Positions 93-25,195 of a DNA stretch of 64,000 nucleotides are shown here, piece after piece. The translations under genes were made by a program, and so were the position numbers. Origin of the DNA: Mesorhizobium sp. ORS 3324 (GTDB lineage Bacteria; Pseudomonadota; Alphaproteobacteria; Rhizobiales; Rhizobiaceae); contig LM655170.1 of assembly GCA_000824825.2 (NCBI GenBank), positions 252,679 to 316,678 on the forward strand, written 5' to 3'. Position 1 is the first letter of the stretch, and every line of letters starts with the position of its first letter. The notes beneath the pieces were generated by a model, which was not told the DNA's origin, made no database searches, and saw only the letters and a list, made by a program, of their open reading frames with translations.

Positions 93-1607
93 TCATGCGG
101 CAAGCTCCGTCTTGCGGATGTGATCGGCGACGCGCAGGGCCTGGGCTGCGATCGACAGCGCCGGGTTGACCGCGGCCGAGGTCGGCAGGAAGCCGGCGTC
201 GACGACGAACAGGTTGTTGTGATCGTAGGCGCGGCAGAACGTATCGAGGGGCGCCGTCGCCGGGTCGTTGCCCATGCGCACGGTGCCGCACTGGTGCGAA
301 GGTGTGCGCTTGTCGAAGGGACGCGACAGCACGATCGGATAACCGCAGGCGCGAAAATTCTCGCGCATCACCCTGGTCAGGCCTTCGAGCGACTGCATGT
401 TGGAACGCCGCCATTGCATGACGATCTCCTTGCCGTCGACCATGATCCGGCTTTCAGGATCGGGCAGGTCCTCGCACATCAGGTACCAGTCGACGGCGTG
501 GCCGGCCATGAAATCGAGCGCGAATTTCGGCGCCAGCTTCACATTGGCCCGGAGGATGTTGCCGTCGATCTTGCCGAGAAGCTGGACATTGCCCAGCGGC
601 TTGCCGCCCTTGCCGTCCGACAGATAATAGTCGTTGAGCATCAGCGTTTTCTGGTAGACGGCATCGTTGCGGCGGCGCAGGTCGATCGCCAGCATCGCGC
701 TCGAATTGTGGTTCATGAAATTGCGGCCGACCTGGTCGGAGCTGTTGGCGAGGCCCTTGCCGCCTTTCTTGCCAGCATCGGCAGAAGGCGAACGCAGCAG
801 GATGGCGGCCGAGTTGATCGCGCCGGCCGACAGGATCACCAGCTTCGGCGACAGCGTCTTCTGCGAGCCGTTCTGGGTGTAGTGGATGGCGGCGATCGAC
901 TTGCCGTCGGGCGAGGCTTCGAGCCAGTCGACATGGGCACCGGTGTCGAGTCGGATATTCGCATCGCCGAGCGCCGCTGCCAGCGGTCCGGTCTGGGCAT
1001 CGACCTTGCCCTGTCCGGTGTTCGGGAAGGCATCCCAACCGGTCTTGCCTTCCTTCAGCCAGGCTTCGATGTCGACGCCGAGCGGCAGCGATGCCGGATG
1101 CAGGCCGAGGCCCTTCAGTTCGGCGCGGGCACGCGCGATCGAAGGCTCGTCGGGCACCGGCTTGAAAGCATAAGGGAGCGAGTGGAATGGCTCGGTCGGG
1201 TCCTCGCCGAGACAGCCGCGCACGCGAAAAAGCTGCTCGGCCTTCGAATACCAAGGTTCGAATTCGTCATAGGAAAACGGCCAGGCCGGCGACACGCCGC
1301 CGAAGTGTTCGAGCTCTGAAAAATCTTCCTTGCGGTAGCGGATCAGCACCGCGCCGAAGAATTTCGAGTTGCCGCCGACACAATAATAGTTGCCGGGGTT
1401 GAAGACCGGGCCGCCGGCCTCGCGCCACATTTCCTTCGGCCGGTAATGTCCGTCGACGAAGATCGATTGCGTCGAGCGTGCATGCGGCGTCGCGGGCAGG
1501 TGCTCGCCGCGCTCCAGGATCAGGATCGAGGCGCCGCTGCCGGCCAAGCCGGAGGCGATCGTGGCGCCGCCGATACCGGAGCCGATGATGACGATATCCG
1601 GGTTCAT
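93..1607 (-). CDS. GMC-family FAD-dependent oxidoreductase
   Basis: A 504-residue glucose-methanol-choline (GMC) family flavoprotein. The FAD-binding motif GSGIGGATIASG begins near residue 8. The C-terminal region carries SHQCGTVRMG and VNPALSIAAQAL, which supply the His and Asn expected at the flavin active site. Members oxidise hydroxyl groups of sugars, polyols or alcohols. The ATG at 1607 follows the transporter ATPase gene by 5 bases; the open frame runs further upstream, but only from here does the protein look like the family. It is the last gene of the LacI-headed operon, so it probably oxidises the imported sugar or a product of it. The substrate cannot be told from sequence. Confidence 0.88.
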   Translation of the reverse strand: MNPDIVIIGSGIGGATIASGLAGSGASILILERGEHLPATPHARSTQSIFVDGHYRPKEMWREAGGPVFNPGNYYCVGGNSKFFGAVLIRYRKEDFSELEHFGGVSPAWPFSYDEFEPWYSKAEQLFRVRGCLGEDPTEPFHSLPYAFKPVPDEPSIARARAELKGLGLHPASLPLGVDIEAWLKEGKTGWDAFPNTGQGKVDAQTGPLAAALGDANIRLDTGAHVDWLEASPDGKSIAAIHYTQNGSQKTLSPKLVILSAGAINSAAILLRSPSADAGKKGGKGLANSSDQVGRNFMNHNSSAMLAIDLRRRNDAVYQKTLMLNDYYLSDGKGGKPLGNVQLLGKIDGNILRANVKLAPKFALDFMAGHAVDWYLMCEDLPDPESRIMVDGKEIVMQWRRSNMQSLEGLTRVMRENFRACGYPIVLSRPFDKRTPSHQCGTVRMGNDPATAPLDTFCRAYDHNNLFVVDAGFLPTSAAVNPALSIAAQALRVADHIRKTELAA

Positions 1608-1612
1608 GGCCG

Positions 1613-2728
1613 TCAGAGAATGCGCTTCTCGGTCGCCGGATCGAAGAACACGGCCTTGCTGAGGTTGAAGGCCAGTGGCGTGCTGGTGCCGGGCTGGATC
1701 CTGGCATCGGCGCGCAGCCGCGCCACCACACCCTTGCCGCCGAGATTGGTGACGGCGAAGGTGTCCGAGCCAGCCGGCTCGACCACTTCGATGTGGCAAT
1801 CGGCGGTGGCGATCTCGGATCCATTGCGCTCGGCGCCCTCCGGATCGGTCAGCGCTTCCGGGCGGACGCCGAAGATGACCTGCTTGTCCTTGAATGCCGC
1901 AAGGCCGGCCGGCGCGCCGGGAAGCGAGAGCGTGATCGGCTGGCGCGCCTCGCGATCGAGCACCACGGAGAGCCCGCTGCCATTGGCGCCGATCTTGGCC
2001 GGGATCAGATTCATCGCCGGCGAACCCATGAAGTCGGCGACGAACACGTTGGTCGGGTTGTTGTAGACCTCCGCCGGCGTGCCGAACTGTTGCACCTCGC
2101 CATCGCGCATCACGGCGATCTTGGTCGCCAGCGTCATCGCCTCGATCTGGTCATGCGTGACATAGACGATGGTCGTGCCGGTGGTCGCGTGCAGGCGCTT
2201 GATCTCGATGCGCATGTCGACGCGCAGCTTGGCATCGAGGTTGGAAAGCGGCTCGTCGAACAGGAAGAGCTTCGGGTCGCGTACCAGCGCCCGACCCATG
2301 GCGACGCGCTGGCGCTGGCCGCCGGAGAGCTGGCTGGGCTTGCGCTGCAAGAGGTGGCCGATCTGCAGGATCTTGGCCACCTTGTCGATCGCCGCCTGCC
2401 GCTCGGCCACCGGCACGCCGCGCATCTCCATGCCGAAGGCAATGTTGCCGGCCACGGTCATGTTCGGATAGAGCGCGTAGCTCTGGAAGACCATGGCGAT
2501 GTCGCGCTTCGACGGATGCAGATCGTTGATGGCGCGGCCGTCGACGCGGATCTGGCCTTCGGTGATGGTCTCCAGGCCGGCGATGGTGTTGAGCAGCGTG
2601 GACTTGCCGCAGCCGGACGGACCGACCAGCACAAGGAAGCCGCCCTTTTCGAGCTCGACATTGATGCCCTTCAGGATCTCGACATTCCCGAAGCGCTTCT
2701 TCAGCCCATCAATTTCCAGAAAAGCCAT
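1613..2728 (-). CDS. Sugar ABC transporter ATP-binding protein (UgpC/MalK type)
   Basis: A 371-residue ATPase of the CUT1 class of carbohydrate importers. Visible motifs are Walker A GPSGCGKST (about residues 36-44), signature LSGGQRQR, Walker B LFLFDEP followed by the D-loop SNLD, and the switch His in VTHDQ. The last 130 or so residues form the MalK/UgpC-type regulatory extension. It would energise the two permeases encoded just upstream. The gene starts 23 bases after the second permease gene and is followed 5 bases later by the GMC oxidoreductase gene. Confidence 0.93.
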   Translation of the reverse strand: MAFLEIDGLKKRFGNVEILKGINVELEKGGFLVLVGPSGCGKSTLLNTIAGLETITEGQIRVDGRAINDLHPSKRDIAMVFQSYALYPNMTVAGNIAFGMEMRGVPVAERQAAIDKVAKILQIGHLLQRKPSQLSGGQRQRVAMGRALVRDPKLFLFDEPLSNLDAKLRVDMRIEIKRLHATTGTTIVYVTHDQIEAMTLATKIAVMRDGEVQQFGTPAEVYNNPTNVFVADFMGSPAMNLIPAKIGANGSGLSVVLDREARQPITLSLPGAPAGLAAFKDKQVIFGVRPEALTDPEGAERNGSEIATADCHIEVVEPAGSDTFAVTNLGGKGVVARLRADARIQPGTSTPLAFNLSKAVFFDPATEKRIL

Positions 2729-2751
2729 GGTCGTTCCTTAAAGAAAAGAGG

Positions 2752-3696
2752 TCAGCCCTTGACCGCGCCTGCCATCAGCCCGCGCACGAAATAGCGGCCT
2801 GCGACGATATAGACGATCAGGGTGGGGAGCGCGGCGATCATCGCCGCCGCCATGTTGACGTTGTACTCTACGACGCCGGTCGAGGTGTTGACGACATTGT
2901 TCAGCGCCACCGTCATCGGCATCACGTCGCCGGTGCCGGCGTAGGCGGAAGCGAACAGGAAGTCGTTCCAGATGTTGGTGAACTGGTAGATGACGGTGAC
3001 GACGAAAATCGGCATCGAGTTCGGCAGCATGATGCGGCGGAAGATCTGGAAGAACGAGGCGCCGTCGACCTGCGCCGCCTTGATCAGCTCGGTCGGGAAG
3101 GCCTCGTAATAGTTGCGGAAGAACAGCGTGGTGAAGCCAAGGCCATAGACGACATGAACGAAGACGAGGTTCACCGTCGAATTGCCGAGGCCGAACGAGA
3201 AGCCGATCGAGTTTCGCAGGTTGGCGCCGAAGCGGCCGATGCTGCCGAGGATCGTCGCCATCGGCAAAAGCACCGACTGGAACGGGATGAAGCAGGCAAA
3301 CAGCATCATCGCGAAGACCAGCGTGTGGCCGCGGAAGCGCCATTTGGTCAGCACATAGCCATTGAGCGCGCCGAGCAGCGTCGAGATCAGCACCGCCGGA
3401 ACCACCATCTTGATGGAGTTCCAGAAGTAGCCCTTGATGCCGGCGCAGGTCAGACCGACGCAGGCCTCGCCCCAGGCCTTGCCCCAGGGCTCGAAAGTCG
3501 GCGCCTGCGGCAGCGACAGCATGTTGCCGTTCTGGATCTCGTCCATGGTCTTGAACGAGGTGACCAGCATGACGAAGAGCGGCATCAGGTAGAACAGCGC
3601 GAACAGCGCGAGCAGGCCGTAGATGACGATGCGGTTGAGCGTCCTGGCGCTGAGGCCGCTCGAGGCCTGCCTTGCCGGTGAGGTGATGGCGCTCAT
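2752..3696 (-). CDS. Sugar ABC transporter permease 2 (MalG type)
   Basis: A 314-residue inner-membrane permease with six predicted hydrophobic segments. The EAA loop that docks the ATPase is visible as ELIKAAQVDGASFFQIFRR. The ATG overlaps the stop of the first permease gene (ATGA), so the two are translationally coupled. An open frame reaches much further upstream, but that part is a shadow of permease 1. It is the MalG-position subunit of a CUT1 importer. Confidence 0.92.
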   Translation of the reverse strand: MSAITSPARQASSGLSARTLNRIVIYGLLALFALFYLMPLFVMLVTSFKTMDEIQNGNMLSLPQAPTFEPWGKAWGEACVGLTCAGIKGYFWNSIKMVVPAVLISTLLGALNGYVLTKWRFRGHTLVFAMMLFACFIPFQSVLLPMATILGSIGRFGANLRNSIGFSFGLGNSTVNLVFVHVVYGLGFTTLFFRNYYEAFPTELIKAAQVDGASFFQIFRRIMLPNSMPIFVVTVIYQFTNIWNDFLFASAYAGTGDVMPMTVALNNVVNTSTGVVEYNVNMAAAMIAALPTLIVYIVAGRYFVRGLMAGAVKG

Positions 3697-4652
3697 CGCG
3701 GCTTCTCCCTGAGCTCGGAATAGAGGTAAGGCACGATGATCGCGGTCAGCGTCATCAGCATGATCACCGCGCTGGCGGAGCCGACCGCCATCTCGTTGCG
3801 CTTGAAGGTGAACTCGTACATGAAGTTGGACGGCAGCCAGGCCGAGCCGCCAGGCCCGCCACTGGTCAGCGCCACGACCAGGTCGTAGGACTTGATGGCG
3901 AGGTGTGCGAGCACGATGAAGGCCGAAAGGAACACCGGCCGCAGCAGCGGGATGACGATGCGGCGATAGAGCTGGAAAGTGGAGGCGCCGTCGATCTGCG
4001 CCGCCTTCATGATCTCGCCGTCGATGCCGCGCAAACCGGCCAGGAACATCGCCATGATGAATCCGGAAGCCTGCCAGACGCCGGCAATTACCACCGTGTA
4101 GATGACGAAATCCTTGTTCTTGATCCAGTCGAAATGGAAGCTCGTCCAGCCCCATTGATGCAGCGTCTGCTCGAGGCCGAGGCCGGGGTCGAGGAACCAT
4201 TTCCAGGCGACGCCGGTGACGATGAAGGAGAGCGCCATCGGGTAGAGGTAGATCGGCCGCAGCATGCCTTCGCCGCGGATCTTCTGGTCGAGCAGGATGG
4301 CCAGGAACAGGCCGAGCGCCAGGCAGATCAGGATGTAGAGAAAGCCGAAAATGCCCATGTTGGTGATCGAGGTGTACCAGCTCGACGGCGGGTCGCTCTC
4401 GAAGGTCCAGCGCCACAGCCGCTGATAGGCGCGCGCGCCGGTAATGTCATAGGAGGGGAAGGTCTTGGAGTTGGTGAACGACAGATAGATCGTCCACAGG
4501 ATGAAGCCATAGACGAAGACGATCGTCGCCGCGAAGCTCGGCGCCAGAACGATCTTCGGCAGCAGGTCCTGCAGGCGCGAGCGGACGGTCGCGCTAGGGC
4601 GGGTGTCTGGCCCCCGTGTCAGCTTGATGGTGGTTTCGGCGACTGTGCTCAT
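3693..4652 (-). CDS. Sugar ABC transporter permease 1 (MalF type)
   Basis: A 319-residue inner-membrane permease. It has an N-terminal membrane segment (IVLAPSFAATIVFVYGFILW), further helices, and the EAA loop EIMKAAQIDGASTFQLYRR. I chose ATG 4652 (MSTVAETT); a GTG at 4691 would add 13 residues. About 130 bases with a GC-rich hairpin separate it from the binding-protein gene. It pairs with the MalG-type permease whose start overlaps its stop. Confidence 0.9.
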   Translation of the reverse strand: MSTVAETTIKLTRGPDTRPSATVRSRLQDLLPKIVLAPSFAATIVFVYGFILWTIYLSFTNSKTFPSYDITGARAYQRLWRWTFESDPPSSWYTSITNMGIFGFLYILICLALGLFLAILLDQKIRGEGMLRPIYLYPMALSFIVTGVAWKWFLDPGLGLEQTLHQWGWTSFHFDWIKNKDFVIYTVVIAGVWQASGFIMAMFLAGLRGIDGEIMKAAQIDGASTFQLYRRIVIPLLRPVFLSAFIVLAHLAIKSYDLVVALTSGGPGGSAWLPSNFMYEFTFKRNEMAVGSASAVIMLMTLTAIIVPYLYSELREKPR

Positions 4653-4738
4653 CGGCTCATCCAGTACCGGTTGGTCGGGACTGCCCGGCACGAAGCGCGC
4701 CAGGGTGCGTCCCGGACCTTGTGATGGTAGGAGACCTT

Positions 4739-4754
4739 CCCCGCCGGGGCGGGG
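4739..4754 (-). other. GC-rich hairpin between binding-protein and permease genes
   Basis: CCCCGC pairs with GCGGGG across a short loop, in the 128-base gap after the solute-binding-protein gene. Such hairpins often stabilise the binding-protein part of the transcript so that it is made in excess over the permeases. There is no U-run, so full termination is unlikely. Confidence 0.4.
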
Positions 4755-4780
4755 GAGGCTCGGTTTAACGCGGCTACGTC

Positions 4781-6034
4781 TTACTTCGCGTCGTCGATGG
4801 CCTTGACCAGCTCGGTCACTGCCTCGTCCGAAGACTTGATCTGGCCGTGGACGAACTTCGAGATGACGTCCTTGTAGGCGTTGGCGACGGCCGGAGGCGC
4901 GCCATAGCCCTGGGCCAGCGAGCCGAACAGCGTGCCGCCCTCGTTGGCCTTCTTCAGATCGGCGATGCCCTTCTTGCCGCAGGCGTCGAAGTCGGTGTCA
5001 GGCACGTCGGTGCGGGCGGGAACCGAACCCTTCACGACGTTGAAGGCCGACTGGAAGCTCTTCGACAGGGTGGCGGTGGCCAAAGCGACCTGGGCGGCCT
5101 TGCGGTCGTCCGGAACGTTGAACATGCCGAACATGTCGGAGTTGTAGATCACGGTGCCGTCAGTGCCGGGGAAGCGGTAGCACAGGAAGTCGGTGCCAGG
5201 GGTCTTCTTGGCGGCGTGGAACTCGCCCTTGGCCCAGTCGCCCATCACCTGAACCAGCGCATCGCCCTTGATGACCATGGCTGTGGCGAGGTTCCAGTCG
5301 CGGCCCGAGAAGTTCGGATCGACGTATTTGATAAGCTTGGCGAGGTTGTCGAACGATTTCTTCATCGTGTCGGACTTGAGCGACTCGTCATCGAGGTCGT
5401 TCATAGCCTTCTTGTAGAACTCCGGCCCGCCGGTCGACATCACGACGGAGTCGAACATGGTGGCTTCCTGCCAGTTCTGGCCGCCGAGCGCGAGCGGGAT
5501 GACGCCGGCCGCCTTCGCCTTGTCGAGCAGGGCGATGAAGTCGTCGAAGGTCTTCGGCTCGGTACCGCCGATCTTGTCCATCACCGCCTTGTTGATCCAC
5601 AGCCAGTTGACGGAGTGAACGTTGACCGGAGCCGCGACCCACTTGCCGTCATAGACGGAGAATTTCTGCAGGGCGGCCGGAACCGATTTGTCCCAGCCTT
5701 CCTTCTTGGCGGTTTCGGTGAGGTCGCCCATGACGCCGGCGGCGGCATAGTCGAGCACGGTGTAGCCCAGCATCTGCGAGGCGGTCGGATAGTTGCCGGC
5801 CGCGACCATCGCCTTCAGCGCGGTCATGGCGGCGTCGCCGCCGCCGCCGGCCACCGGCACGTCCTTCCAGGCATAGCCTTCCTTGGCCAGGTCCTGCTTC
5901 AGCACGTTCAGCGCGGCCGCTTCACCGCCCGACGTCCACCAATGCAGCATCTGCACTTCCTTGACGTCCGCGGCATGCGCCGAAAACGCAAAGCTCGTCG
6001 CAAGAGCCGTTCCGATAAGCAGTTTGCGCAACAT
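4781..6034 (-). CDS. Sugar ABC transporter periplasmic substrate-binding protein
   Basis: A 417-residue family-1 extracellular solute-binding protein. The signal peptide [21 protein letters not shown] is predicted to be cut after AHA (residue 21), with no lipobox. The mature start [16 protein letters not shown] is typical of glucose/mannose-type binding proteins of CUT1 systems. The ATG at 6034 is preceded by a strong GGGAGGAAG ribosome site. It lies 59 bases after the aldehyde dehydrogenase gene on the same strand and starts the transporter block. The ligand is probably a sugar, sugar acid or polyol; sequence alone does not say which. Confidence 0.92.
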
Positions 6035-6093
6035 TACACTTCCTCCCTTGTTGCATTCACATGACCGGCGGATGTCCGCCGGGGTCTCCCAAC

Positions 6094-7605
6094 TCAGCCG
6101 ACCCACCATCCGGTGCGCTGGCCGCGATGAAACTGAATGGTCTTTTCCTCGGTATAGTCCTCGACGGCCCGTTTGCCGAGTTCGCGTCCGAGACCGGACT
6201 GCTTGTAGCCGCCGAAGGGCAGTTCGGGATAACCTTCCATGAACGTGTTCACCCAAACCGTCCCCGAACGCACTCCGCGCGCCACCGACATGCATGTGTC
6301 GATGCTGGCGCTCCACACACCCGCAGACAAACCATAGGGCGTGTTGTTGGCGATGTGCAATGCCTGTTCAATCGTTTCAAAAGTGAGCACGGACAGCACC
6401 GGTCCGAACACTTCCTCGCGGGCGATGGCCATGTCCTCGGTGACGCCCCGCACGATGGTCGGGTCGAGATATTGGCCGGCGTTGGAGGCGAGCTGCCCGC
6501 CGCCGCTGAAAATGCTGCCGCCGTCGGTTTTCGCGGCCGTCACATAGCCGGCTACCTTTGCCATGTGATCGGCCGAGATCATGGCGCCGACCTTGGTGCG
6601 GTCGTCAAGCGGATCGCCGACCCTGACCTTCTCGGCCAGCGCCTTGACTGTTCCGAGGAAGTCGTCGGCGATCGCCTCGTGGACGATCAGCCGGCTGCCG
6701 GCATTGCAGCATTCGCCGGCGTTGAAGAAGCCGCCGAACACCGCGGCATCCGCCGCCGCTTCGAGGTCGGCGTCGGGGAAGATGATCTGGCCGTTCTTGC
6801 CGCCGAGCTCCATCGAGACCTTCTTCAGCGAACCGGACGCAGCCGCCATGGTCATCTTGCCGACGCGCGTCGAGCCGGTGAAGGATACCATCTCGACCAG
6901 CGGGTGGCTGACCATCGGCGCGCCGACATCGGCGCCGAAGCCGGCGAGCATGTTGACGACACCGGCCGGCAGGCCGGCCTCGAGCAGGATGTCGCCGAGC
7001 ACGAAGGTCGAGGCCGAGGTCATCTCGCTCGGCTTGACCACCGCCGTGCAGCCGGCGGCGAGCGCGAAGGGCAGTTTCTGGCTGACGATCAGGAAGGGGA
7101 AATTCCATGGCGTGATGATCGAGACGACCCCGATCGGCTCGCGCAGCACCACGCCCAGCATGGTGTCGCCGAGATTGGCGTAGCTCTCGCCATGCAGCGT
7201 GCGGGCGAGCGAGGCGGCATAGCGCCAGATGTCGACGGCGCCGCCGATCTCGCCGCGCGCCTGGGCGATCGGCTTGCCCGATTCCAGCGCGTCGAGCCGG
7301 GCGATCTCTTCCAGCCGGGTTTCGATCAGGTCGGCCGCCTCGAGCAGCACGGCGGCGCGTTCGGAGGCTTTCATGCGCGGCCACGGGCCGGTCTTGAAAG
7401 CCTTGTGCGCGGCCTGCACCGCAGCTTCCACCTCCGCGGCACCCGCCTGGGCATAACGCGAAACGGCAAAACCGTGGCCTGGACTGCTGCGCTCGATGGT
7501 GCGGCCGTCGCGGGCATCGACATGCTTGCCGTCGATCAGGAGTTTGTAGCTCTTCGGCGCCTGGGACGCCTCGGCCGGCATTGCAATGTTGAGCGGTGCG
7601 TTCAT
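6094..7605 (-). CDS. NAD(P)-dependent aldehyde dehydrogenase
   Basis: A 503-residue member of the aldehyde dehydrogenase superfamily. The key residues are all visible: Asn168 in PWNFP, the cofactor loop FTGSTRVG, Glu266 in MELGGKN, and catalytic Cys300 in NAGECCNAG. It would oxidise an aldehyde to a carboxylate. The gene follows the crotonase gene by 10 bases. In this operon it could make the acid that the CoA-transferase then activates; this is inference. Confidence 0.92.
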
Positions 7606-7615
7606 CGTGCTTTCT

Positions 7616-8384
7616 CTAGGATCTCGAAAAGGTCGGCTTCTGCTTGGCCTTGAAGGCGCCGACGCCGGCCTTGAGATCGCCGGTCAGCGCGATGAAGCCG
7701 CTGGCCAGCGCCTCGGTCGCTGCAGCAACCTCCTCCCCCTCGGCAATGCCGATCATCAGCTTGGCGGCCTCGGTCGCCAGCGGACCGCGCTCGGCGATTT
7801 TTTCGGCCCAGGCCTTGGCTTCTTCCAACGCCTTGCCGGTCTCGACGACGCGGTCGACGATGGCGAGCGCAAGCGCGTCGGCCGCCAGGAAAATCTCGCC
7901 GCCGAGCGCCATGCGCCGGACCGCCTGCGAGCCGAAGCGGCGCACGGCGCGCTGCGTGCCGGACCAGCCGGGCACGACGCCGATCGAGGTTTCGGGGAAG
8001 CCGAGCTTCACCTGCGTCTCGGCGACGCGAAAATCGCAGGCGGCGGCTAGCTCCAGCCCGCCGCCCAGCGCATGACCGGACAGCACAGCGATGGTCGGCT
8101 GCCGAAGCCGCGCCAGCCGGTCGAAGACGCGGTGGCCATAGCGGACCCATTGCACCTGGAAATCGGCGGCGCTCAATTGTGCCCACGCCTCGACGTCGCC
8201 GCCGGCACAGAAGCCCTTGCCTTCGCCGCGGACCAGCACGACGCGGACACCTTCCGCCAGTTCCGCCTCGTCGAGCGCTGCTTCGAGCGCGCGCAGCATC
8301 GGGATGTCGAGCGCGTTGAATTTCTCCGGACGTCGCAACGTGACGGTGCCGATCAAGCCGTCCTGCTCGAAGGTGACGAGGCGC

Positions 8385-8392
<8 letters not shown>
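7616..8392 (-). CDS. Enoyl-CoA hydratase/isomerase family protein (crotonase)
   Basis: A 258-residue crotonase-fold protein. The oxyanion-hole segments FCAGGDV (about 61-67) and GHALGGGLELA (about 106-116) are present. Both acidic positions used by true hydratases are filled, Glu114 and Glu134 (in GFPETSIG). ATG 8392 overlaps the CoA-transferase stop by 8 bases. It acts on an acyl-CoA thioester, which is unusual next to a sugar ABC transporter and argues for a CoA-dependent late step in the pathway. Confidence 0.9.
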
Positions 8393-12048
<3,656 letters not shown>

Positions 12049-12084
12049 ATCCCTGCGTTCCTCCGCGTCTGGCGCCAAATTTAT

Positions 12085-12120
12085 TGGAACGTTCTAATCA
12101 CCATGCCTAGGTGGAGTCAA
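12085..12120 (-). promoter_or_regulatory. Promoter and LacI operator of the catabolic operon
   Basis: Read on the minus strand: -35 TTGACT (12120-12115), a 17-base spacer, and -10 TTAGAA (12097-12092). The operator TGGAACGTTCTA (12085-12096) overlaps the -10 and the start point. It is one base short of a perfect palindrome and shares the 14-base block TTATTGGAACGTTC with the second site near 12240. A bound repressor would block polymerase. Confidence 0.72.
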
Positions 12121-12227
12121 CCGGGAATCGCGCGGAATTCGAAAAATCGATGACTCGCCTGAAAATACTAGACCTTACGCCGCAGTGCAGCATTAAATCG
12201 CTTCAGCTATCAGAATCATAAAGGTCC

Positions 12228-12256
12228 TTGATTTATTGGAACGTTCCATCTATAGG
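12228..12256 (+). promoter_or_regulatory. Promoter and LacI operator of the DUF993 gene
   Basis: -35 TTGATT (12228-12233), a 17-base spacer, and -10 TATAGG (12251-12256). The perfect 12-base palindrome TGGAACGTTCCA (12237-12248) fills most of the spacer, the classic position for a LacI-type repressor site. The transcript would start near 12263, leaving a short leader before the ATG at 12278. Confidence 0.75.
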
Positions 12257-12277
12257 CTGCCGCGAAGGGAGATTTCC

Positions 12278-13432
12278 ATGGACATCATCCTGCCTGCGGA
12301 AAACGGCGAGCGTGTCGGCTACCGGCTGGTCGGCCAGCCGGCGGAGCCCGTCATCGGCGCGGATTTCCCACGCGTCGCCTATGCCGCTGCCCATGTCGTC
12401 GCCAACCCCTTCGCCATGACCAATCCCTGGTCGCGGCCGGCGGTCGACTGGGACAGGACGATGGCCTTTCGCCATCATCTGTGGCGGCTCGGCTTCCGCA
12501 TCGCCGAGGCGATGGACACCTCGCAGCGCGGCATGGGTTTTGACTGGGCAAGCGCCAAGGAACTGATCCGACGCTCCATCGCCGAAGCGCGCACGGTGCA
12601 CGGCGCCGACCTCGCGTCGGGCGCCGGCACCGACCATCTGGCGCCGTCGGCGGCAAGGACGCTGGACGACGTGATCCGCGCCTATGAGGAGCAGTTCGCC
12701 TTCATCGAAGGCGAGGGCGGCAAGGCGATCATGATGGCGAGCCGCGCGCTGGCGGCTGTGGCCAAGGGGCCGGAGGACTATGCCCGCGTCTACGACCGCA
12801 TCCTCAGCCAGGCTTCCGGCAAGGTCATCCTGCACTGGCTGGGCGACATGTTCGATCCGGCGCTCGAGGGCTATTGGGGCAGCAGGGATTTCGAGCCCGC
12901 GCTGGAGACGGTCGTAGCCATCATCGAGCGGCATGCCGACAAGGTCGAAGGCATCAAGATATCGCTGCTCGACGCCGGCAAGGAGGTGCAGCTGCGCGAC
13001 CGGCTGCCAGAAGGCGTCGTGATGTTCACAGGCGACGATTTCAACTACCCCGAACTGATTGCCGGCGACGGCAAGCGGCATTCGCATGCGCTGCTCGGCA
13101 TCTTCGATGCCATCGCGCCGGTGGCCAACGCCGCGCTGGTGAGGCTCGGCGAGGGCGACCGGGCCGCCTACGACGCGCTGATGGCGCCGACCGTGCCGCT
13201 ATCGCGAAAAATCTTCGAGGCGCCGACAGAATATTACAAGGCGGGCATCGTCTTCATGGCCTGGCTGAACGGGCACCAGGATCATTTCGCGATGGTCGGC
13301 GGCATGCAGTCGGCGCGCGGCATCTGCCATTACGCGGATGTGTTTCGCCTTGCCGATCAGGCCGGCTTGCTGGCCGATCCCGAACGCGCCGTCACCAGGA
13401 TGAAAGCCCTCTGCGCGGTCGCGGGCGTCTAA
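12278..13432 (+). CDS. DUF993 family protein (dihydrodipicolinate-synthase-like aldolase)
   Basis: A 384-residue protein of the DUF993 family, which is related to the dihydrodipicolinate synthase/N-acetylneuraminate lyase barrel enzymes. Lys227 in VEGIKISLLDAGKE matches the position of the Schiff-base lysine motif of that superfamily. A retro-aldol or dehydratase step on a keto-acid is therefore likely. The ATG at 12278 is preceded by AAGGGAG. It is transcribed away from the operon but shares its operator sequence, so it should be induced together with the transporter and other enzymes. The exact reaction is unknown to me. Confidence 0.82.
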   Translation: MDIILPAENGERVGYRLVGQPAEPVIGADFPRVAYAAAHVVANPFAMTNPWSRPAVDWDRTMAFRHHLWRLGFRIAEAMDTSQRGMGFDWASAKELIRRSIAEARTVHGADLASGAGTDHLAPSAARTLDDVIRAYEEQFAFIEGEGGKAIMMASRALAAVAKGPEDYARVYDRILSQASGKVILHWLGDMFDPALEGYWGSRDFEPALETVVAIIERHADKVEGIKISLLDAGKEVQLRDRLPEGVVMFTGDDFNYPELIAGDGKRHSHALLGIFDAIAPVANAALVRLGEGDRAAYDALMAPTVPLSRKIFEAPTEYYKAGIVFMAWLNGHQDHFAMVGGMQSARGICHYADVFRLADQAGLLADPERAVTRMKALCAVAGV

Positions 13433-13530: not shown

Positions 13531-13605
13531 TGGTGGGCGTGACAAGGATTGAACTTGTGACCCCTGCAATGTCAATGCAGTGCTCTCCCGCTGAGCTACA
13601 CGCCC
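13531..13605 (-). tRNA. tRNA-Val (anticodon GAC)
   Basis: A 75-base tRNA on the minus strand. The acceptor stem GGGCGTG pairs with CACGCCC, the D arm contains AGCTCAGCGGGAGAGC, the anticodon stem-loop reads CTGCATTGACATTGCAG with anticodon GAC, the T arm contains GTTCAATCC, and CCA is encoded at 13533-13531. The 3' end faces the catabolic locus. Confidence 0.97.
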
Positions 13606-20213: not shown

Positions 20214-20461
20214 TTTTGTCGCACAAAGCAAGCTGGATTGGCATATCATCCCTGCCATTCCGGCCATTGTCGCGAGCGGCGGGTAGACGGCTCCGCTCTG
20301 GCCTGTACGATACCGGATGCGAACCGGGCGTATGGCCGTATGGTTCGGCAAGAATTTCGCGAGACGTGCAGCAAGGATGAAGGGGAAGCCTTGTGCTTCC
20401 CAAGGCAAACCAGCGCCCAAGGCAAAGCAGCGCCAAGCGGGCGGAAACGGAGGACAGGACG

Positions 20462-25195
<4,734 letters not shown>

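Follow-up and report, generated by a model that had tools for sequence, protein, structure and literature searches.

1,5-Anhydroglucitol (1,5-AG) is a widespread polyol; like the other 1,5-anhydrohexoses it has no anomeric carbon and does not open by mutarotation, its ring being an ether. In aerobic Rhizobiaceae, according to the portions of PMC12441222 consulted, a specific reductase converts 1,5-anhydrofructose to anhydromannitol, and C1 hydroxylation by an unidentified enzyme then yields mannose; the same portions note that no aerobic, oxidative bacterial pathway for 1,5-AG has been reported and that an enzyme able to consume it aerobically would be welcome. Here we describe a LacI-controlled locus in a 64,000-nucleotide stretch of Mesorhizobium sp. 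ORS 3324 (contig LM655170.1; this whole stretch is the window, and all window coordinates are positions in it). The locus is real, conserved and, by its predicted operator, one regulon; part of its biology is already known, because its Gfo/Idh/MocA protein is a relative of 1,5-anhydro-D-fructose reductase (AFR), and its CoA part is unexplained and testable.

The reductase, its neighbours and the described routes

The Gfo/Idh/MocA protein closely matches AFR in sequence, scoring 471 bits against 2glx (residues 1-327 of 334) and 454 bits against 4koa. The activity that marks AFR is the reduction of 1,5-anhydrofructose to anhydromannitol with NADPH. The active site of the Gfo/Idh/MocA family combines the Lys of EKP with a DxxxHD helix motif, and both CEKPLA and DITVHDADTLRF are identical between the window AFR and 2glx in the alignment. 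2GLX is the S. morelense 1,5-anhydro-D-fructose reductase (PMC5969746, part consulted), and the anhydrofructose catabolism of strain S-30.7.5 (Kuhn, Yu and Giffhorn 2006, via the portions of PMC12441222) has as its reductase a close relative of the window AFR. Gene order around the annotated 1,5-anhydro-D-fructose reductase of S. meliloti Ak57 is that of the window. The S. morelense route, as those portions of PMC12441222 give it, runs by reduction and then C1 oxygenation and has no place for the window's CoA-transferase, crotonase and DUF993 protein, whose presence it does not explain. The original prediction knew of no described pathway with this composition; the AFR part has a described relative, and the CoA part is unexplained.

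The anaerobic 1,5-AG pathway of gut bacteria (YbiW/PflD, Ma et al., via the consulted portions of PMC12441222) acts on the same substrates as proposed here and faces the same ring without an anomeric carbon, but relies on PTS phosphorylation and a glycyl-radical enzyme where the window has ABC import and CoA enzymes. Non-phosphorylative Entner-Doudoroff and 2-keto-3-deoxy sugar acid pathways resemble our proposal in their DHDPS-superfamily aldolase, glyceraldehyde oxidation and glycerate kinase; the locus differs from them in its CoA-transferase and crotonase and in having no enolase-superfamily or IlvD/Edd-type dehydratase among the operon genes and the 11 window proteins scanned.

In S. meliloti 1021, where we take the cluster to be SMc04390-SMc04401, we take SMc04396 to be the binding protein and SMc04400 the AFR, and the order SMc04390, SMc04391, SMc04392 matches that of a second GMC enzyme (GMC2), a short-chain dehydrogenase (SDR) and a first GMC enzyme (GMC1). 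As far as the consulted parts of each source go, smc04396 is induced by dextrin (PMC4960864), SMc04390 (sorbose dehydrogenase), SMc04391 (SDR), SMc04392 (dehydrogenase) and SMc04132-04133 are lower in a phbC phaR mutant than in phbC (PMC12542648), and SMc04401 is listed as a regulator with a small predicted regulon (PMC4560400). The pathway is not described in those parts of the publications naming these locus numbers, and no anhydro-sugar or CoA pathway of this kind is among the matches listed in the open-licence literature.

The cluster (93-13432) consists of ten minus-strand genes and the divergent DUF993 gene, with intergenic gaps of -11 to 122 bases and 157 bases between LacI and DUF993 in the latter's listed TTG frame:

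93..1607, minus: GMC1, GMC-family flavoprotein dehydrogenase (start taken as the first Met ahead of the FAD motif)
1613..2728, minus: ABC importer ATPase, UgpC/MalK type (CUT1; protein family scan)
2752..3570, minus: ABC importer permease, MalG/GlcU type (protein family scan)
3693..4691, minus: second ABC importer permease (protein family scan)
4781..6064, minus: periplasmic binding protein, nearest to glucose/galactose-binding proteins (sequence and fold comparison)
6094..7605, minus: aldehyde dehydrogenase, ALDH (protein family scan)
7616..8395, minus: crotonase-family hydratase; the two catalytic Glu are present and PGWSGTQR is conserved (family scan and alignment)
8385..9986, minus: fused family I CoA-transferase, ExG glutamate E327 (family scan and alignment)
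9983..10999, minus: Gfo/Idh/MocA protein, close relative of AFR (sequence match)
10996..12048, minus: LacI-family repressor (ATG at 12048 preferred over TTG at 12078)
12083..12098, no strand: predicted operator, copy 1, upstream of the LacI gene
12235..12250, no strand: predicted operator, copy 2, upstream of DUF993
12278..13432, plus: DUF993 (PF06187), DHDPS/N-acetylneuraminate lyase fold with a candidate Schiff-base lysine (family and fold comparison)

All genes named in the original prediction (importer, oxidoreductases, CoA enzymes, LacI, DUF993) lie where it had placed them, and the two hydratase glutamates it read in the crotonase are present and conserved. Its operon end at 93 was not borne out: beyond the window's left edge the operon goes on with the SDR, which shares 63% identity with its counterpart in S. 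meliloti Ak57, and with GMC2, which shares 74%. The absence of a kinase holds for the window itself and fails for the wider family, since in 5 of 41 related loci a glycerate kinase lies next to the cluster (the glycerate kinase query came from one of these); the source genome carries a 70% identical glycerate kinase on another contig. The whole genome has one DUF993 gene and one CoA-transferase match at E <= 1e-60. Further along the window lie a tRNA-Val (gac) at 13531-13605, just downstream of DUF993, and at 20393-25195 a 1600-residue open frame that, read by eye, resembles the glutamate synthase large subunit.

The binding protein scores 549 bits against 4r2b (titled 'with bound glucose'), and rows 1-7 of its fold comparison are all glucose/galactose-binding proteins. 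The nearest solved relatives of GMC1 are glucose and fructose dehydrogenases, also pyranose oxidases; pyranose oxidase converts 1,5-AG to 1,5-anhydrofructose. In family I CoA-transferases the catalytic Glu belongs to an ExG motif in the second domain, and the E327-Q-G of the window protein is conserved in at least 99% of 37 relatives. Rat enoyl-CoA hydratase uses E144 and E164 and reads PGAGGTQR; the corresponding crotonase residues E115 and E135 are conserved in at least 95% of 28 relatives, and PGWSGTQR is conserved too. The families with a name that come nearest to the CoA-transferase are YdiF and FadX, but we rejected a housekeeping enzyme for acetoacetate or fatty acids because the protein forms its own clade (at least 62% identity, paralogs at most 44%) with its own neighbours.

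DUF993 has its best relative, 94% identical, in M. silamurunense. It scores 501 bits against 4dnh (titled SMc04132 of S. meliloti), followed by DHDPS and N-acetylneuraminate lyases, and is assigned to the (beta/alpha)8 fold of that superfamily. The Schiff-base lysine of the superfamily sits where strand 6 ends; the candidate in DUF993, K241 in the 398-residue frame from 12236, lies within the predicted strand 237-243 (mean pLDDT 59). The term DUF993 was not found in the open-licence literature.

Conservation of the locus and a shared LacI-type operator

Across 297 genomes of the order, the orthologous CoA-transferase occurs in 42, at 46 places, with identity of at least 62%; the other 72 rows reach at most 44%. 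DUF993 occurs in 89 of the 297, namely in 39 of the 42 CoA-transferase genomes as opposed to 50 of the 255 others (Fisher p 1.6e-20, uncorrected for kinship), and lies within 20 kb of the CoA-transferase at 31 of the 46 places. AFR (E <= 1e-60) is present in 30 genomes, in 25 of which its best place is less than 1 kb from the CoA-transferase. We examined 41 CoA-transferase loci, drawn from 35 of the 46 places (one more contig-end-cut place among them) and from public plasmid records; with identity cut-offs set by us, and several loci cut by contig or fetch ends, these carry crotonase in 38 cases, DUF993 in 27, GMC2 in 26, ALDH in 25, binding protein in 22, LacI in 22, GMC1 in 21, AFR in 19, SDR in 19, acyl-CoA dehydrogenase in 9 and glycerate kinase in the 5 noted above. 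As a control, 20 of the 72 paralogous rows (mostly from the top of the list) showed no orthologous crotonase, DUF993, GMC1, GMC2, ALDH, binding protein or AFR. When the genome scan is limited to its 80 best loci, almost all of them from Mesorhizobium, the CoA-transferase and crotonase are there in every case, LacI in 79, ALDH and binding protein in 77 each, DUF993 and SDR in 75 each, AFR in 69 and GMC2 in 51.

The divergent gap contains ATTGGAACGTTCTAAT at 12083-12098 and ATTGGAACGTTCCATC at 12235-12250, and these two flanking operator copies tie DUF993 to the operon as one predicted LacI-type regulon. The window has four strand matches at two or fewer mismatches (0.20 expected); in the whole genome the two gap sites are the only ones at one or fewer, and three further places appear at two mismatches. 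In the 76 gaps of Mesorhizobium type that we examined, the two most frequent operator-type palindromes turn up 63 and 59 times. Under a survey criterion of at most one mismatch within 400 bases of a cluster gene, the operator is present in 18 of the 19 AFR-bearing loci, in 4 of 13 other loci with the CoA-transferase, and in none of the 21 DUF993 loci without it. Because the listed TTG at 12236 lies inside operator copy 2, the likely DUF993 start is the ATG at 12278, which gives 384 residues, the length of most relatives among the matches listed. In one genome (G203) the cluster is split, contig L235 carrying LacI, AFR and a crotonase and contig L068 carrying DUF993, CoA-transferase, ALDH, GMC1, SDR, GMC2 and glycerate kinase; the operator is found on both halves. 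Chance gathering of these neighbours is excluded by the conservation and operator counts. The original prediction had named failure of the CoA enzymes to stay with the transporter in related genomes as one way to refute it; they are kept with the transporter and DUF993, and the idea survives.

Settings of the CoA-transferase and DUF993 genes

The genes occur in three settings. In type A, with 19 loci, they are arranged as in the window, with AFR. Type B (9 loci, including pSymA of S. meliloti 1021, Sagittula, Roseateles and Rhizobium sp. TH2) joins the CoA-transferase and crotonase to an acyl-CoA dehydrogenase, mostly also with aldo/keto reductases, an isomerase, GMC2 and DUF993, and has another importer and neither AFR, GMC1 nor the operator (0 of 9). 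The pSymA cluster and its relatives (L202, L204, L206, L207) share with the window an orthologous CoA-transferase (67-70%), the crotonase, a GMC2-like enzyme and DUF993, and differ from it by the added acyl-CoA dehydrogenase, two aldo/keto reductases and a sugar isomerase, as well as by the importer and the missing genes. Type C (21 loci) has DUF993 without the CoA enzymes, a different Gfo/Idh/MocA protein in 19 of 21, a recurrent sugar-isomerase-like family beside DUF993, and in 10 loci an enolase-superfamily-like protein, a weak match at 26.6 bits, below the Pfam cut-off. Loci with AFR but no CoA-transferase did not point clearly to a substrate.

Some individual loci vary further. On the Sagittula sp. 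P11 plasmid (L204, type B) the neighbours are annotated as a degradative HMG-CoA reductase, a TRAP transporter and a 3-keto-5-aminohexanoate cleavage protein; on a Paraburkholderia caribensis plasmid (L205) the genes next to DUF993 encode a ThiF-type protein, a sugar isomerase and a CoA-transferase other than the one in the window. A second related cluster (L208, L209, L210, L212, L213) has a paralogous CoA-transferase (41-42%), a related LacI and an acyl-CoA dehydrogenase; its operator is a variant, for example TTAGATCGTTCTAA.

A tentative route for 1,5-anhydrohexoses and its rivals

The likely substrate class is the 1,5-anhydrohexoses (1,5-anhydroglucitol, -mannitol or -fructose), proposed because the reductase fits, the importer is of the glucose type and a sugar kinase is lacking; CoA is proposed for ring opening because the anhydro-sugar ether cannot open by itself. 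Our tentative reading, to which we give a probability of about 0.35, is that the operon imports 1,5-anhydrohexoses and opens the ring via a CoA thioester, yielding pyruvate and glycerate. GMC1 and AFR would interconvert C2 epimers via 1,5-anhydrofructose, and GMC2 with the aldehyde dehydrogenase would oxidise the primary alcohol (C6) to a 2,6-anhydrohexonic acid. The CoA-transferase would then form the 2,6-anhydrohexonate thioester, acidifying the proton on the ring-oxygen-bearing carbon, and the crotonase would eliminate the beta-hydroxyl as water to leave an enol ether, whose hydration would open the ring to 2-keto-3-deoxyhexonate. DUF993 would split this into pyruvate and glyceraldehyde, which an aldehyde dehydrogenase and then a glycerate kinase would process. 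An acidic proton and a beta-hydroxyl in a CoA ester are probably what a crotonase handles, and 2-keto-3-deoxyhexonate would be a typical substrate for the superfamily of DUF993. That the operon embodies this exact new ring-ether opening (C6 oxidation, CoA thioester, crotonase dehydration, enol ether hydrolysis and DUF993 cleavage of a 2-keto-3-deoxy acid) we consider unlikely. The scheme of the original prediction, which combines uptake of a hexose-like sugar without phosphorylation with its oxidation, CoA transfer and aldol cleavage, is possible in outline; it missed the identity of AFR, the SDR and GMC2, the operators and the glycerate kinase link.

Several observations weigh against the anhydrohexose route. 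The predicted DUF993 model is poor (mean pLDDT as above), K241 aligns with the lysine region of 3flu in a DHDPS match that is not significant (E 0.55), and comparing the DUF993 profile with those of five DHDPS-family proteins from the genome yielded nothing useful (probability 0.4), three of the five frames being wrong stretches. DUF993 does not adjoin the CoA-transferase at 15 of the 46 places and is missing from 3 of the 42 genomes. In the 9 type B loci this CoA-transferase and crotonase accompany different importers and an acyl-CoA dehydrogenase, with AFR absent, which means that the CoA steps are not confined to anhydro sugars. AFR is gone from between LacI and the CoA-transferase in 11 of the best 80 loci (L113, L120, L121, L123, L124, L131, L133, L134, L143, L145, L148), the rest of the cluster being kept, and genome G209 has no AFR at E <= 1e-60; AFR is therefore not an obligatory step there, which fits a side entrance for 1,5-anhydrofructose and equally a pathway needing no anhydro sugars. 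The control loci, too, blur the picture: 5 of 20 have a related LacI (41-44%) with a site at one or fewer mismatches and an acyl-CoA dehydrogenase 72-74% alike, and 2 of 20 an SDR above the cut-off. A binding protein of the glucose type might mean no more than that glucose or galactose is the substrate, and the C1-oxygenation route from anhydromannitol to mannose, as the consulted portions of PMC12441222 describe it, would not need the window's enzymes.

There are three rival explanations. In the first the substrate is again a 1,5-anhydro sugar, but initial oxidation of a ring hydroxyl to a ketone would let the ring open by beta-elimination to a deoxy-dicarbonyl, which AFR would reduce; GMC2 and ALDH would turn the product into an acid with a 3-oxo or 3-hydroxy group, from which the CoA-transferase, SDR and crotonase would release acetyl-CoA and glyceraldehyde. 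Relatives of the CoA-transferase are indeed named acetate/3-ketoacid transferases, the SDR family (its L066 member) fits the 3-ketoacyl reductase model PRK12745 at 357 bits (cut-off 250), and glycerate kinase adjoins some clusters, but DUF993, under the same operator, would be left without a clear task and no thiolase was found among the operon genes scanned; we judge this improbable. Slightly less probable is the possibility that the described route suffices, AFR making anhydromannitol and C1 oxygenation giving mannose, with the CoA enzymes serving another compound under the same repressor. Such a route is reported for S. morelense (PMC12441222, portions consulted) and would accord with loss of AFR from otherwise intact clusters; however, AFR, CoA-transferase and crotonase overlap or abut (gaps of -4 and -11 bases) and are kept together across families, and the operon genes scanned include no oxygenase. 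We give marginally less credence still to an ordinary hexose or polyol (e.g. glucose or galactose to its acid) in the scheme of the original prediction, with AFR as a general dehydrogenase: the glucose-type binding protein and the dispensability of AFR favour it, against the close AFR match and the fact that aldonic acid dehydration needs no CoA, sugar-acid dehydratases acting on aldonic acids directly.

For the aerobic 1,5-AG question, the locus offers a defined set of about 13 genes that belong to a single regulon and whose hosts are well suited to genetic work. DUF993 is a family with a solved yet unexplained structure, for which the locus provides a concrete, testable role; the anhydrohexose route, if true, would give this domain its first function.

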